Origin: a virus
Strand: one strand, 5' to 3'
IMG/VR virus record: IMGVR_UViG_3300025655_000128
Span: 1-36,263 of that record
DNA length: 36,263 bases
The position numbers and the translations under genes are program-made. The notes below the pieces were generated by a model. The model was not told the DNA's origin, did not search any database, and worked only from the letters and a program-made list of their open reading frames with translations. Below are positions 2,361 to 36,263 of the stretch, piece after piece (the stretch's first letter is position 1; each line of letters starts with the position of its first letter).

Positions 2361-2379
2361 TATTGTTCTTTAACGTCAG
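2361..2379 (-). repeat. 19-nt repeated intergenic motif, copy 1
   Basis: Plus strand reads TATTGTTCTTTAACGTCAG. A copy with one difference lies at 14341-14359. Both are in the short leader of a minus-strand DNA-metabolism gene, 12 bases before the exonuclease start here and 47 bases before the SSB start there. It could be a promoter, a processing site or a regulator site. Two copies are too few to decide. Confidence 0.4.
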
Positions 2380-2392
2380 CTAATTTTTTCTC

Positions 2393-11318: not shown

Positions 11319-11683
11319 TATACATAAGCCTCTATAATAGGGTGGTTTCCTTGCATACTCAAAACAGCTACTGCTGCAGAGAGGATCTCTTCTTTAGTGT
11401 CAGCTAACACAAAGCTGTTGTTTTTGTAGGGGTTATAGGAGATACGGAAAGGGTTGCCAGAAGAAAGAAACCTCGCTTCTGTTAAATGCCCTACCACAAA
11501 GGCATGAACATTTTTCTTTTTGTCTTGTAAAACCTGATCTCGTCCTGCTTGTCTTACGACAAACTTAGGTAGGGCTACTACTACTGAGTCTTTATGAGCG
11601 ATAACTTTCCCGTAATCACTCGTCTCACGGGACTGGATTGAGAAGATGTTTTTGTGTAGATTCCAGTAAACTGCTACTTTCAT
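11318..11683 (-). CDS. conserved phage protein (VYWNLHK / ISYNPYKNNSFV type)
   Basis: 121 residues beginning MKVAVYWNLHKNIFSIQS with the middle VVVALPKFVVRQAGRDQVLQ, NVHAFVVGHL and later FRISYNPYKNNSFVL. From memory this is a widespread phage family near replication genes with no known activity; the conserved Asn-Pro-Tyr-Lys and Gly-Arg-Asp suggest nucleotide or nucleic-acid contacts, as inference. Weak ribosome site; probably coupled to the upstream gene, whose stop abuts this ATG. Confidence 0.7.
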   Translation of the reverse strand: MKVAVYWNLHKNIFSIQSRETSDYGKVIAHKDSVVVALPKFVVRQAGRDQVLQDKKKNVHAFVVGHLTEARFLSSGNPFRISYNPYKNNSFVLADTKEEILSAAVAVLSMQGNHPIIEAYV

Positions 11684-12745: not shown

Positions 12746-13186
12746 TTATAGAGAATAGTCAATAGCAGCATCAATAGCGTCTTGAAGCGAGTCGTGTACT
12801 TCAGTAGCCATGGCTGTCATAAACGGGTTTAACTTGTCTTCTGGGTTCTTGAACATGATGATGATTTTGTTCTTCATGTGTGAGAACATAACCTCTGCCG
12901 CTGTTCCTTGTGCTTTAGCGTGAGGATGGTCTCGCATGTCTGTCAAGAGTACTTCACAACGAGCAATGTCACGAAGGTCTTGACGGAAGATGCGGTTAGC
13001 TATGTTGTCTGATAGCCCGTTGTCATCCAAGCTTTGCTCATGGAAGCTAATTCGGCGGGTAGGATCAAGACAAAAGACGTCAGCAGCCTCTAGTTGCTCT
13101 GTAGCAACGTCCCGCCATCCTTTCATCTCTTTCCCAGTAAAGCCAGCCATTGGTCCAGCTAGATAGACTCCTCGTAGTAGGTTCAT
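12746..13186 (-). CDS. nucleoside 2-deoxyribosyltransferase-like protein
   Basis: 146 residues. The N-terminal VYLAGPMAG (7-15) and the later QGTAAE (93-98, with candidate nucleophile Glu98) match the nucleoside deoxyribosyltransferase fold, which exchanges bases on deoxyribonucleosides or hydrolyses nucleotides. A role in base salvage or modified-nucleotide handling fits its place among DNA-metabolism genes. Members of the superfamily vary in substrate, so the exact reaction is open. Start behind AAGGAGGAAG. Confidence 0.8.
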   Translation of the reverse strand: MNLLRGVYLAGPMAGFTGKEMKGWRDVATEQLEAADVFCLDPTRRISFHEQSLDDNGLSDNIANRIFRQDLRDIARCEVLLTDMRDHPHAKAQGTAAEVMFSHMKNKIIIMFKNPEDKLNPFMTAMATEVHDSLQDAIDAAIDYSL

Positions 13187-14340: not shown

Positions 14341-14359
14341 TATTGTTCTTTAGCGTCAG
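14341..14359 (-). repeat. 19-nt repeated intergenic motif, copy 2
   Basis: Plus strand reads TATTGTTCTTTAGCGTCAG, one base different from 2361-2379. It sits in the SSB leader between two genes of the same strand. Function open (promoter, processing site, or regulator site). Confidence 0.4.
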
Positions 14360-14366
14360 GTATTAT

Positions 14367-16914: not shown

Positions 16915-17148
16915 CTATCCGTTCAATCGTGGGTTGTTAGTATTTAGTGTTTTAACCCAGTTACGAACAGAGTCTTTACAGCAACCGATGTCATAAGCAA
17001 CTTTAGCAATGCTCTCTCCGTTAATTACACGAGAAGCAGCAATAACACGTTCAGCGTTAGTTCGGCCACTATACGGCTGTCCATTTTTAAGGACATAGCG
17101 AGATTTGCTGTAAAAGGATGAGATGGAAGGGAAGTTACGAGTAGCCAT
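16915..17148 (-). CDS. small helix-turn-helix DNA-binding protein
   Basis: 77 residues. A basic serine-rich start is followed by ERVIAASRVINGESIAKVAYDI and GCCKDSVRNWVK, a helix-turn-helix of the transposase/Psq type (repeat VAYDIGCCKDSVRNW is the recognition half). Likely a transcription regulator. Its leader contains several inverted repeats that could be its operator. Placed just before RNAP, it could time RNAP expression. Start behind AAGGAGATCTCTT. Confidence 0.7.
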   Translation of the reverse strand: MATRNFPSISSFYSKSRYVLKNGQPYSGRTNAERVIAASRVINGESIAKVAYDIGCCKDSVRNWVKTLNTNNPRLNG

Positions 17149-17465: not shown

Positions 17466-17619
17466 TTGAAGGTTCCACTTTAATTTCACCAACGTGAGGC
17501 ATAAAGGCTCCACGTAATGCTTTTGCATAACGATCTGCGTCTGACTTTAGAAAGAAAGACTTAGTGCAGATCAGGCTAAGGTTTAGGTCGTAGATGCCTA
17601 CTTTGTAAACAGTGTTCAT
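17455..17619 (-). CDS. 54-residue protein, unknown
   Basis: Hand-translated: MNTVYKVGIYDLNLSLICTK, SFFLKSDADRYAKALRGAFM, ending EIKVEPSNVG. AAGGAGAAGACAA precedes the ATG and the start overlaps the upstream stop as ATGA. Looks like a tiny alpha/beta domain. Function unknown. Confidence 0.65.
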   Translation of the reverse strand: MNTVYKVGIYDLNLSLICTKSFFLKSDADRYAKALRGAFMPHVGEIKVEPSNVG

Positions 17620-17717
17620 TTGTCTTCTCCTTTAAGAAGGTAAGGGGTAACGGCGTAGTCCGCAATAGCGGCTAGGAAAGGTGCAGCAAGAGCTGATAGT
17701 ACAAGTACGTGTTCCAT
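17616..17717 (-). CDS. 33-residue hydrophobic peptide
   Basis: Reads MEHVLVLSALAAPFLAAIAD followed by YAVTPYLLKGEDK: one clear membrane helix and a charged tail. AAGGAAAACACT precedes the ATG. It is the first gene after the third palindromic promoter-like element and lies just downstream of the endolysin, so a lysis role (small holin-like or regulator) is possible but unproven. Confidence 0.6.
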   Translation of the reverse strand: MEHVLVLSALAAPFLAAIADYAVTPYLLKGEDK

Positions 17718-17742: not shown

Positions 17743-17764
17743 TGATATATGTTATATCATTATA
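17743..17764 (-). promoter_or_regulatory. TATAAT plus palindrome element, copy 1
   Basis: On the minus strand a conserved GCATC, then TATAAT, merges into the perfect palindrome TGATATA-N3-TATATCA. Same arrangement as at 18906 and 19215. No convincing -35 box is present at 16-18 bases. It lies 26 bases before the 33-residue peptide gene, and could be a hairpin promoter, an operator over a start site, or both. Confidence 0.6.
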
Positions 17765-17770
17765 GATGCG

Positions 17771-18172
17771 CTAGCTTTCTCGGTTTTTATAGAACAAGTG
17801 TGTTCCAACCTTACTCACATACTCTAGCTCATCTGCCCAGTAGGGCCAGACATAGTCTGCATGGTAGTGGGTAGTGTCTGTTCCAGGTAGGTAGGTCTCC
17901 GGTTCAGACAAGATAATAGCTGCTGCCTTGTAGATTTCCTCCCATGCTTGTTTGTCTAGGTAACTCATTTTTGTAGGGTCATCAGTAAGACCATCGTGTG
18001 TCCAGCTAAACTGTTGTTTCTGATAAACTACTTCACAAATGGTATCAGGATAACTGCTAGACTCAACTCGATTAAGAGTTACTTCAGCTACCATTTGCTG
18101 ACCGATTAAAGGCTCATTACGAGCTTCAAAAAACATATTAAGTGCTAGGCACATTGTTGCTGTCATAATCAT
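17771..18172 (-). CDS. SleB-type cell wall hydrolase (endolysin)
   Basis: 133 residues. The Hydrolase_2 (SleB) pattern is clear: CLALNMFFEARNE with candidate catalytic Glu16, then GQQMVAEVTLNRV, PDTICEVVYQ and QFSW. This family cleaves peptidoglycan glycan strands. No cleavable signal peptide is evident, so release would need a holin. The first residues MIMTATMCLALNM are mildly hydrophobic. Four small genes for possible membrane proteins lie directly upstream. Start behind AAAGGAGAATGC; it shares a base with the upstream stop. Confidence 0.9.
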   Translation of the reverse strand: MIMTATMCLALNMFFEARNEPLIGQQMVAEVTLNRVESSSYPDTICEVVYQKQQFSWTHDGLTDDPTKMSYLDKQAWEEIYKAAAIILSEPETYLPGTDTTHYHADYVWPYWADELEYVSKVGTHLFYKNRES

Positions 18173-18345
18173 TAAGCATTCTCCTTTAGTGTTTCTTTTA
18201 GAACTTTGTTAAGCGCCTCTTCACAAGGCACAGCTGTAAGGTCTATGAATTCTTTTGACAAAGGCGGACTAAAAAGAACACCCCCAATACTAACTATTAA
18301 CTCTGTAGTGCCTTGTACAAAGGCTTTACCCCAAGTCATTTTCAT
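18172..18345 (-). CDS. 57-residue protein before endolysin
   Basis: Hand-translated: MKMTWGKAFVQGTTELIVSI, GGVLFSPPLSKEFIDLTAVP, then a helical charged tail. One weak hydrophobic stretch (residues 16-26). Its last bases include AAAGGAG for the endolysin. It overlaps the end of the upstream membrane protein gene by 20 bases. Possible lysis accessory; function unknown. Confidence 0.6.
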   Translation of the reverse strand: MKMTWGKAFVQGTTELIVSIGGVLFSPPLSKEFIDLTAVPCEEALNKVLKETLKENA

Positions 18346-18637
18346 TAATTTCTTCCCTTTTATCTGGCATCATATTAACCAGTCTTCGAATAAAACTCTT
18401 TACATCAACTTCTTTGCTAGAACCCTTTGTCATGTGAAACAAAAAATCTACAAGGAAAAAGCCAAGTATAAAAGGCAGATAAGTTATACCTGTATAAATT
18501 ACTTGAACAAGTATTAAGAATAAAACAACAAATTCGTTTATTGCATAAACTTTTTTATCTGTGTATTTGTGGTACCCCAGCCTAATAAACAAAGCCGCTA
18601 AAAACTGAGCTAGAAAAGTTACAACGATTGTTAACAT
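18326..18637 (-). CDS. three-helix membrane protein, holin candidate
   Basis: 103 residues. Hydrophobic segments at about 3-20, 34-51 and 53-70, then a charged cytoplasmic-type tail (KSFIRRLVNMMPDKREEINEN). Three membrane passes before an endolysin suit a class I holin. A tail this long and basic is a little unusual. Start behind AAGGAAACACAAA; candidate phage promoter 17 bases further upstream. Confidence 0.65.
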   Translation of the reverse strand: MLTIVVTFLAQFLAALFIRLGYHKYTDKKVYAINEFVVLFLILVQVIYTGITYLPFILGFFLVDFLFHMTKGSSKEVDVKSFIRRLVNMMPDKREEINENDLG

Positions 18638-18653
18638 TTTGTGTTTCCTTATT

Positions 18654-18681
18654 AGCAGTTTTAAACCATGCTTAGGGTTAC
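18654..18681 (-). promoter_or_regulatory. candidate phage RNA polymerase promoter, site 2
   Basis: Plus strand AGCAGTTTTAAACCATGC followed by TTAGGGTTAC. Shares the invariant AGCAGTTT, CT and AGG blocks with the other three sites. Lies between two membrane-protein genes, 16 bases before the start at 18637. Confidence 0.55.
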
Positions 18682-18685
18682 CTTA

Positions 18686-18871
18686 TTAATATGCGACGTT
18701 ATAGTTTGCCTTCTTGTCTCTTTTGTCGGCTTTATAAAAAGCCATTCCGTACTTGCTATATTTTTTTCTTTTAGATTTTTTGTAAAGGTATTCACCTACT
18801 TTAAAACTAAAAAACTTATAGCTCAGTGTTGTACAGATAGCAAAAACGATTGTATAGATTAGCATAGCCAT
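18686..18871 (-). CDS. single-pass membrane protein with basic tail
   Basis: 61 residues from the ATG at 18871 (AGAGGAACTTAAA upstream); a GTG at 18895 would add eight residues. MAMLIYTIVFAICTTLSYKF is one membrane helix, followed by a Lys/Tyr-rich tail (KSKRKKYSKYG). Position upstream of the lysis genes suggests a holin helper, antiholin or regulator. Confidence 0.6.
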   Translation of the reverse strand: MAMLIYTIVFAICTTLSYKFFSFKVGEYLYKKSKRKKYSKYGMAFYKADKRDKKANYNVAY

Positions 18872-18891
18872 TTTAAGTTCCTCTTGGATTT

Positions 18892-18952
18892 CCACTTGGG
18901 GTTATTGATATATTGTTATATCATTATAGATGCCTTGTTTTTCTCACTTTTT
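18892..18952 (-). repeat. 61-nt repeat with TATAAT plus palindrome element, copy 2
   Basis: CCACTTGGG, then the TGATATA-N4-TATATCA palindrome (18906-18923), TATAAT on the minus strand (18923-18928), and the flank GCCTTGTTTTTCTCACTTTT. Nearly identical to 19202-19262. It lies just before the ATG at 18871 and overlaps that gene's alternative GTG start (18895). Confidence 0.75.
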
Positions 18953-18977
18953 GCACACAAAGTTCGTACAATTTTGA

Positions 18978-19005
18978 AGCAGTTTATACACATACTCAGG
19001 TGTTT
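18978..19005 (-). promoter_or_regulatory. candidate phage RNA polymerase promoter, site 3
   Basis: Plus strand AGCAGTTTATACACATACTC followed by AGGTGTTT. Differs from site 1 at only two of 28 positions. Immediately after the holin-like gene at 19010 and upstream of the palindromic element at 18906, so two types of candidate promoter stand in series here. Confidence 0.6.
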
Positions 19006-19009
19006 TATT

Positions 19010-19186
19010 TTATTTATTTTTTGGCTTATACGAGAAAACATAAGCTAAAGGTATAGCTCCAAAGATAACAGTAAGGATAGCCCACAACCAGGGGTTTTGA
19101 CCATTGTATTTAGCCATAAGAAAGCTAATACGGGCGAGAAGAACTATACACACTACTGTATAGATTGTAAACAGAATAGCAATCAT
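19010..19186 (-). CDS. 58-residue two-helix membrane protein, holin candidate
   Basis: Hand-translated: MIAILFTIYTVVCIVLLARI (first helix), MAKYNGQNPW turn, LWAILTVIFGAIPLAYVFSY (second helix), KPKNK end. Size and two-pass layout fit class II holins. First gene after the tape measure terminator and after the third palindromic element. AAAGGAAATAAAAA precedes the ATG. Confidence 0.7.
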   Translation of the reverse strand: MIAILFTIYTVVCIVLLARISFLMAKYNGQNPWLWAILTVIFGAIPLAYVFSYKPKNK

Positions 19187-19201
19187 TTTTTATTTCCTTT
19201 A

Positions 19202-19262
19202 CCACTTGGGTTACTGATATATTGTTATATCATTATAGATGCCTTGTTTTTCTCACTTTTTT
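19202..19262 (-). repeat. 61-nt repeat with TATAAT plus palindrome element, copy 3
   Basis: Same order as copy 2: CCACTTGGG, palindrome TGATATA-N4-TATATCA (19215-19232), TATAAT on the minus strand (19232-19237), flank GCCTTGTTTTTCTCACTTTT. It stands between the terminator of the tail operon and the first membrane gene. Confidence 0.75.
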
Positions 19263-19289
19263 GTGTAGTTTTTTGCTGACGTATTTGAT

Positions 19290-19315
19290 AAAAAAGGCCA
19301 CCCCGAAGGGTGACC
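19290..19315 (-). terminator. strong terminator after the tape measure gene
   Basis: GGTCACCC and GGGTGGCC form an 8-bp stem with a TTCG loop, followed by TTTTTT on the minus strand. A textbook intrinsic terminator 26 bases after the tape measure stop. It marks the end of the head/tail message. Confidence 0.9.
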
Positions 19316-35338: not shown

Positions 35339-36263
35339 TTACTCAATAATTACTGAGTTATCTGATACGTTGTCTACAAGAGGATCTGTCTGAATTTCTT
35401 CTCTTGCAGAGTCATCATCGTAGTCAGCTGGTAGGAAGTCGTTATACTTTGCAATGTTGAGGAAAGTACTTCTACTAATAATACCAGACTGATACCACTC
35501 AGAAACAAGTCGCATAGCACCCTCTCCGCCGACCATCGGTGCAAAGTCGCTAGACATTTGAAATCCAATATCAGAACCGGAGTAGTCCGTGTTATACTTC
35601 CAGTTTAGCATAAAGGCAATAACCTCTTTTAGCGTACCGGAAATTTTAGCGTTAAGAGTACCTAGCTGTGCTGTTTGAGAAGCATTTCTAATCTCAAGAG
35701 CAACACCAGAAGCCGCCTGTTCAGGTGACAACATCCGAATGCCCATCTTAGCCATTTCTTCGATAGTGGAGGAAATTGCACGATCCATGTCTGCCAAAGC
35801 ACCTGTAGGTGTTTCAAGCACGCTAATGCTCTCATCTTTACGAACACGCAACCAAGATCCAAGCCCAGAGTTAACTAGCTCTTCAAACTCTTCGTCAGTC
35901 ATGTCAGACTGTACGATAGGTGTGTAAGTTGCTGCACCGTATAGTAGGTGGTTACGACGAGATACCTTGTTGTAGAGAGACACCTCTCTGTCAATGAGCG
36001 GCATAAGTACAGGTTCAACAGGTTCAATTTGACCGTTAAGTGGCCAGGCTGGAATTCTGTCAATTCTTGTACCAAATATAGTCGGGTAAACTGTCTTAAC
36101 CTTTTTAAACTCCGCAGAAGCTGCGTAGTCAACGTAGTCTTGCTTAACATCCCCGTTTAGAACCTTAAGCTCATTATTCGTATCAGCATGCTCATAGTAA
36201 TCAATAACTAACTTACCACTTTCGTCAAGGTAGTGATCACAAACAGTGTCAACATAGTTAGCG
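35339..36263 (-). CDS. portal protein (DUF4055 type), N-terminus beyond the window
   Basis: The frame stays open to the right edge, giving 307 residues of C-terminal portal. RIDRIPAWPLNG, PLIDREVSLYNKVSRRNHLL, YGAATYTPIV and LEIRNASQTAQLGTLN are typical of DUF4055 portals, where DNA passes into the head and the MuF domain docks. The window cuts it before its start. Its order with scaffold, capsid and adaptor is the usual siphovirus head module. Confidence 0.85.
   Translation of the reverse strand, partial: ANYVDTVCDHYLDESGKLVIDYYEHADTNNELKVLNGDVKQDYVDYAASAEFKKVKTVYPTIFGTRIDRIPAWPLNGQIEPVEPVLMPLIDREVSLYNKVSRRNHLLYGAATYTPIVQSDMTDEEFEELVNSGLGSWLRVRKDESISVLETPTGALADMDRAISSTIEEMAKMGIRMLSPEQAASGVALEIRNASQTAQLGTLNAKISGTLKEVIAFMLNWKYNTDYSGSDIGFQMSSDFAPMVGGEGAMRLVSEWYQSGIISRSTFLNIAKYNDFLPADYDDDSAREEIQTDPLVDNVSDNSVIIE

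Follow-up and report, generated by a model that had tools for sequence, protein, structure and literature searches.

Three sigma70-type promoters with -35 boxes, A1-A3, precede the RNA polymerase (RNAP) gene of phage T7. Phage N4 also has three early promoters, P1-P3, which carry hairpins with a 3-base loop (PMC4496689); the N4 hairpin is required, is found on the template strand ahead of the start, and serves a virion RNAP at a few promoters placed before the middle-RNAP genes. In Thermus phage P23-45 a virion RNAP fused to the tape-measure protein transcribes the pre-early genes, that of a second RNAP among them, and two motifs are used (PMC10770324). Fusions of MuF to effector domains have been reported (PMC5512222), and the available part of that report gives no promoter for a MuF-RNAP. 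Literature searches on DSS3_VP1 and DSS3_PM1, Naomviridae, roseophage promoters and MuF or virion RNAPs found neither a promoter paper nor a role for a MuF-RNAP.

The stretch of DNA analysed here (the window, 36,263 bases) is a partial genome, with the portal gene cut at one end and primase/helicase at the other. It derives from a siphophage, a marine bacterial virus whose nearest named relatives are the roseophages DSS3_VP1 and DSS3_PM1 of the Naomviridae, and every gene given a family match, window-wide, lies on the minus strand. The window encodes two single-subunit RNAPs, a T7-like enzyme of 723 aa and a 1461-aa fusion of a MuF domain to an RNAP (MuF-RNAP), with identities to the named relatives of 57% and 63%, respectively. 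DSS3_VP1 and DSS3_PM1 were reportedly described in Rihtman 2021. Three near-identical signals (motif A, copies 1 to 3; Table 1) probably switch on the first genes of this phage, its own RNAP gene included. On balance we favour the reading that every one of them combines an early promoter with the beginning of the transcript made from it, with the MuF-RNAP as the most likely polymerase.

Table 1. Positions in the window of the predicted promoters, transcript starts and neighbouring genes (a slash marks a predicted start).
Feature	Position	Strand	Remarks
Motif B, exact match	2367..2382	minus	in front of 5'-3' exonuclease gene
Motif B, TACCTGACGCTAAA/GA	14347..14362	minus	directly behind RNAP gene; predicted RNA GAACA-AUAA-UGUUC from +1
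T7-like RNA polymerase gene, 723 aa	14545..16716	minus	PF00940, E 2.2e-81; T7 RNAP, E 3e-60; motif A copies lie upstream
Small hydrophobic ORF (33 aa) following copy 1	17616..17717	minus	
Predicted 5' end of transcript 1	17743..17760	minus	7-bp hairpin, 3-base loop; RNA fold -3.2 kcal/mol
Motif A promoter copy 1 (putative), TATAAAAACCGAGAAAGCTAGCGCATCTATA	17761..17791	minus	PWM scan; predicted +1 = A at 17760
Cell wall hydrolase gene	17771..18172	minus	PF07486, E 1.9e-23; between copies 2 and 1
Small ORF (61 aa) following copy 2	18686..18871	minus	no PHROG match
Predicted 5' end of transcript 2	18906..18924	minus	7-bp hairpin; palindrome search and RNA fold
Motif A promoter copy 2 (putative)	18925..18955	minus	PWM scan; predicted +1 = A at 18924
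Small hydrophobic ORF (58 aa) following copy 3	19010..19186	minus	47 nt from predicted start; no PHROG match
Predicted 5' end of transcript 3, AUGAUAUAACAAUAUAUCA	19215..19233	minus	7-bp hairpin from second base; RNA fold -3.8 kcal/mol
Motif A promoter copy 3 (putative), ACAAAAAAGTGAGAAAAACAAGGCATCTATA	19234..19264	minus	PWM scan, conserved on 86 contigs; predicted +1 = A at 19233
Intrinsic terminator	19296..19315	minus	interval between tape-measure gene and copy 3
MuF domain - single-subunit RNAP fusion, 1461 aa	30903..35288	minus	PF04233; candidate motif A user

The initial annotation had described a perfect palindrome, TGATATA-N3/4-TATATCA, fused to TATAAT in three places, and this was borne out: the 36,263 bases contain the palindrome at 17743-17759, 18906-18923 and 19215-19232 only, while 100 dinucleotide shuffles and a reversed-pattern control contained none. 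On the minus strand each palindrome is preceded by GCATC-TATAA, its first base being the last T of TATAAT, and exact matches to TATAATGATATA are confined to the same three places in the record. The reported lack of a -35 was likewise confirmed. Although the elements carry the TATAAT of a sigma70 -10 box, none of the three passed a sigma70 consensus scan in which a -35 was required (15 sites against 13.5 expected between 13500 and 20000); no -35 hexamer was found at 16-18 bases, and the 17-base position reads AAAAGT or AAAACC. Their description as standing before lysis/early genes held in part, the lysis wording applying to the cell wall hydrolase gene (PF07486) that separates copy 2 from copy 1. 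An intrinsic terminator 3' of the tape-measure gene precedes copy 3 and, after it, copy 2, and at each of the three copies the predicted start is followed by a small ORF at a distance of 43-53 bases.

The conserved part of the elements extends further upstream than the palindrome block and comprises an A-tract, GTGAGAAAA, N5 and GCATC. This block, AAAAAGTGAGAAAA-N5-GCATCTATANTR, was found in one to five copies per contig on 86 contigs of related phages, which include several near-duplicates and one contig from the window's own phage. A wider pattern gave 173 sites on these 86 contigs, leaving out 11 loci (nine that were uninspected or in which the motif A context did not convince by eye, and two genome-contig matches). 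In IMG/VR the exact palindrome pattern was present in 15 stretches and the core GAGAAA-N6-GCATCTATAAT in 108, with 111 distinct sites, of which 105 were analysed after removal of six that had no A-tract context. As motif A sites share descent, such counts are not independent of one another. A weight matrix picked up two to four sites per record in ten longer records (two of the matches, G003 5101 and G007 34250, being weak) and none in reversed controls. By the same matrix motif A was absent from the outgroup Kolga; it was also absent from the 50.0 of 54.5 kb scanned of EBPR siphovirus 1, a MuF-RNAP carrier, which speaks against the assignment of motif A to that enzyme. Among named phages (14 records) convincing motif A copies were confined to DSS3_VP1 and DSS3_PM1, both of which have one further partial copy, GCATCTATAATGAACC, elsewhere in the genome behind a terminator-like sequence. 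Plasmids gave no near match to the region. The two matches in the genome-contig scan were rejected as chance, neither having a hairpin and L247 looking, by eye, like an EF-Tu-type gene.

The position of motif A was equally consistent. Of the 33 distinct loci with at least 4 kb of sequence before the 723-aa RNAP gene, all except that of the outgroup Kolga (32 loci) have it upstream of this gene in the sense orientation, and the same pattern was found antisense or downstream in none of 51 RNAP loci, most of which had been retrieved through motif A itself. Among 16 loci retrieved by the RNAP alone, all 11 with at least 1.9 kb upstream had motif A, five of these entering the count by way of a different locus on their contig. 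A Shine-Dalgarno (SD)-like motif with an ORF followed within 110 nt at 99 of the 101 sites whose flanking sequence was long enough (median 42), against 25% of random positions. A test for terminators upstream of all sites gave 3 of 98 against 0.35% at random and was set aside as too strict. In many of the relatives' leaders, CCAAGTGG and CCAAGAGGA recur between the hairpin and the start codon.

Since nearly all sites stand directly before small ORFs, the hairpin with its upstream block could alternatively be read as a leader element of longer transcripts, acting in translation or decay and not as a promoter. The SD-like bases within the block before certain HNH ORFs (see below) are in keeping with this. 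However, the upstream block of copies 2 and 3 does not fold by itself, an Rfam search gave no match, and the element restarts a unit behind a terminator, so that we consider a leader element improbable.

The hairpin is separable from the promoter core. In DSS3_VP1 the core at 35809 has no palindrome, while the other core copy, at 36256, has a covaried stem, TGATAGA-N6-TCTATCA. A hairpin of at least five Watson-Crick pairs beginning exactly at the last T of TATAAT was present at 61 of the 105 sites, compared with a mean of 0.9 in shuffles; allowing G-U pairs raised this to 67, and allowing A-C to 62, though base composition favours A-C. With longer loops, the respective counts among 99 distinct downstream sequences were 64 (Watson-Crick), 70 (G-U) and 66 (A-C). 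The complement of a site's own 5-nt arm was found in 60 of 99 cases, seven of which are HNH coding sequence (long-loop stems GAAGA/TCTTC), and that of foreign arms in 105 of 7828; the GAAGA/TCTTC stems enter this count and the longer-loop test, and are not part of the 105-site hairpin counts. Loop lengths range from 3 to 7, most being 4, and a 5-bp hairpin with a 3-8 base loop is missing at 38 of the 105 sites. The base facing the last T of TATAAT was A in 51 and G in two of 53 cases, never C or T, the adjacent base being free, whereas in a motif B control the same facing base was A in ten, C in four and G in one (n=15). On the sequence evidence, this combination of covariation and G-U polarity is the behaviour of RNA or of an RNA-like strand and not that of an operator. 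As the mismatches tolerated are G-U and not A-C, and the register is fixed at the last T, the structure would be a 5'-terminal RNA hairpin; transcripts from the three signals thus seem to begin with a small hairpin, albeit a weak one as RNA in the window (-3.2 to -3.8 kcal/mol).

These observations bear on two readings that the initial annotation touched on. The first, an N4-type promoter in which the palindrome is extruded as a template-strand DNA hairpin and recognised by the MuF-RNAP, draws on the inverted repeat, on three copies placed before early genes as the few N4 promoters precede the middle-RNAP genes, and on a candidate virion RNAP. In contrast to N4, however, the motif A hairpin lies downstream of the core, on the sense strand, and is variable; hairpin-free copies in DSS3_VP1, DSS3_PM1 and many others keep the core, so the hairpin is not always present. 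Loops vary between 3 and 7 bases instead of being fixed at three, the G-U (not A-C) polarity is that of the non-template strand, and constant sequence directly after the hairpin is missing. Together with a structural model of the MuF-RNAP nearer to T7 RNAP than to the N4 enzyme, this makes an N4-like hairpin promoter very improbable. The second reading, a repressor operator overlapping a sigma-type start site, is consistent with a palindrome that spans the start region and with a weak HTH_29 ORF at 16915-17148. Against it, among 32 contigs with at least two hairpin copies the stems differ in 16 and the total lengths in 20, which does not suit the half-sites of a dimeric protein; the G-U pairs that maintain the symmetry do so on a single strand, and a -35 was looked for without success. 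An operator therefore also seems a poor prospect. The ORF at 16915-17148, of 77 aa and situated just before the RNAP gene, matched HTH_29 below the cut-off (E 0.001) and is a possible early regulator.

If the hairpin forms in the RNA, then the last T of TATAAT must lie within the RNA. Where the -10 was left free (AAAAGTGAGAAAA-N5-GCAT), 86 sites read CTATAAT in 72 cases, CTATAGT in four and CTATATT in two, one being shortened and seven without similarity (chance). CTATANT thus varies at a single position, directly before the last T, where the base after CTATA is A 72, G 4 and T 2 times (a purine in 76 of 78). The hairpin register and this single variable purine position together place the predicted +1 at the bases given in Table 1. 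We infer a start inside 'TATAAT' (CTATA/A), a position not expected from a sigma70 -10 box.

The main rival to this reading is that the elements are early promoters of the host RNAP, TATAAT being a sigma70 -10 box assisted by a host or phage activator bound at the GTGAGAAAA box. Parallels are MotA at T4 middle promoters and the T7 A1-A3 promoters. TATAAT, which the host enzyme favours, is perfect at most sites and varies at the fifth position only, as sigma70 boxes do, and three promoters ahead of an RNAP gene recall A1-A3; yet A1-A3 have -35 boxes, which are missing at all three copies of motif A. Furthermore, a sigma70 start would fall some bases beyond the predicted one; initiation 7 bases past TATAAT would strip the 5' arm from a hairpin whose register is fixed and whose G-U polarity is that of the sense strand. 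On such grounds a plain sigma70 promoter was rejected. Directly after TATANT, the first base is G or A at 116 of 116 distinct sites, as the pattern required, and the second, which was left free, at 115 of 116; such a purine pair is unusual for a sigma70 discriminator. We regard transcription by an activator-assisted host RNAP as unlikely, though it deserves serious consideration.

On 14 contigs (L022, L027, L029, L031, L041, L045, L053, L059, L074, L088, L094, L115, L119 and L128) the ORF of a 101-aa HNH endonuclease begins at the ATG of CTATAATG, so that promoter, SD-like GGAG and start codon overlap. GGAG or a similar SD-like sequence within the promoter block before these ORFs suggests that longer RNAs also cross the block, and the HNH ORFs are possibly leaderless or doubly transcribed. 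Leaderless HNH mRNAs were considered as proof of the start site and set aside as ambiguous, since most of these sites carry the SD-like GGAG.

A second motif would account for the other polymerase. Motif B, TAGGTGACGTTAAA/G, or in its wider form TA[GC][GC]TGACGTTAAA/G, is repeated genome-wide and resembles the SP6 promoter; the T7 and SP6 consensus sequences served for comparison. It has the features of T7-family promoters (a specific 5' half, a TAAA/G start and genome-wide repeats) and is thus a predicted promoter. DSS3_VP1 has 15 strict matches to its core, most with the full motif, and 54 distinct sites were counted over the loci analysed. Within 400 nt behind the RNAP gene it was found in 18 of 31 loci, the window included. 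Hairpins from +1 were present at eight of the 54 sites with Watson-Crick pairs and at 21 with G-U pairs (0.7 and 4.4 in shuffles). From its sequence, motif B fits the 723-aa RNAP. A motif-B-like TAGCTGACACTAAAGA at 11391-11406 on the minus strand, inside an ORF and with two mismatches, may be a promoter or chance (1.24 expected at three mismatches or fewer).

With the 723-aa RNAP paired with motif B, motif A would fall to the MuF-RNAP by exclusion, and the suggestion that it is the promoter of that enzyme is favoured on its position, on the separate motif B and on intact catalytic motifs. The residues D1058, K1126, Y1134 and D1376, which we take, by eye, to correspond to the catalytic Asp, Lys, Tyr and Asp of motifs A, B and C in T7 RNAP, are invariant in five sequences. 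Both RNAPs co-occur in every motif A record complete enough, a co-occurrence that cannot in itself assign the motif. An AlphaFold model of the last 992 residues of the MuF-RNAP (mean pLDDT 71.5, pTM 0.59) matched T7 RNAP with Z 24.4 (599 aligned, rmsd 9.6) and N4 vRNAP, ranked low yet listed, with Z 13.7 (488 aligned, rmsd 4.2); as modelled, the enzyme resembles T7 and mitochondrial RNAPs more than N4 vRNAP, although some kinship with the latter is conceivable. Some of G002, G007, G013, G023 and EBPR siphovirus 1 have the MuF and RNAP matches in separate frames, or a shortened RNAP frame, and in EBPR siphovirus 1 (L146 25771-31144) an HNH gene lies between the MuF and RNAP parts.

In the mechanism that we propose, the MuF-RNAP would be carried in the head, enter with the DNA and transcribe both the small early genes and the one encoding the 723-aa T7-like RNAP; that second enzyme would then use motif B for middle and late genes. 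The promoter would be AAAAAGTGAGAAAA-N5-GCATCTATA, with its start at the purine after CTATA; instead of acting as a sigma70 -10 box, 'TATAAT' would form the melting and start region in a promoter of the T7-family type. The RNA would begin A-U-G-A-U-A..., the palindrome forming its 5'-terminal hairpin, which probably guards short leader mRNAs and helps the RNA to leave the template. Likeness to the T7 family is seen in motif B, close to the SP6 promoter, and may extend to the predicted CTATA/purine end of motif A; the conserved GAG box of motif A, however, sits further upstream than the -17 limit of T7. As in P23-45, an RNAP fused to a structural protein would stand upstream in the cascade and two separate motifs occur, but the P23-45 RNAPs are multisubunit-type (two-barrel) enzymes with a tape-measure fusion, unrelated to the single-subunit enzymes and MuF fusion found here. 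The full proposal, that a MuF-RNAP with T7 ancestry, associated with the capsid, comes in with the DNA, reads the linear double-stranded GTGAGAAAA-N5-GCATCTATA/R and gives 5'-hairpinned first transcripts in a two-polymerase, single-subunit cascade of a siphophage, has in our judgement an even chance of being correct. The elements may thus reveal the use of a second, capsid-protein-fused RNA polymerase. If so, they would be the cognate promoter of a MuF-RNAP fusion, a virion single-subunit RNAP would act on a linear promoter as opposed to the extruded hairpin of N4, and beginning an RNA with a hairpin would be a general habit among phages; with the cultured phages, early transcription in DSS3_VP1-type phages becomes directly testable.

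Between the RNAP and DNA polymerase genes, the window carries a nucleoside 2-deoxyribosyltransferase gene (PF05014, E 1.5e-7; 12746-13186), while in DSS3_VP1 a deoxycytidylate deaminase is encoded close to the DNA polymerase. The DNA of DSS3_VP1 contains dU (PMC12697855), which leaves room for a difference in nucleotide metabolism or in the bases of the DNA.
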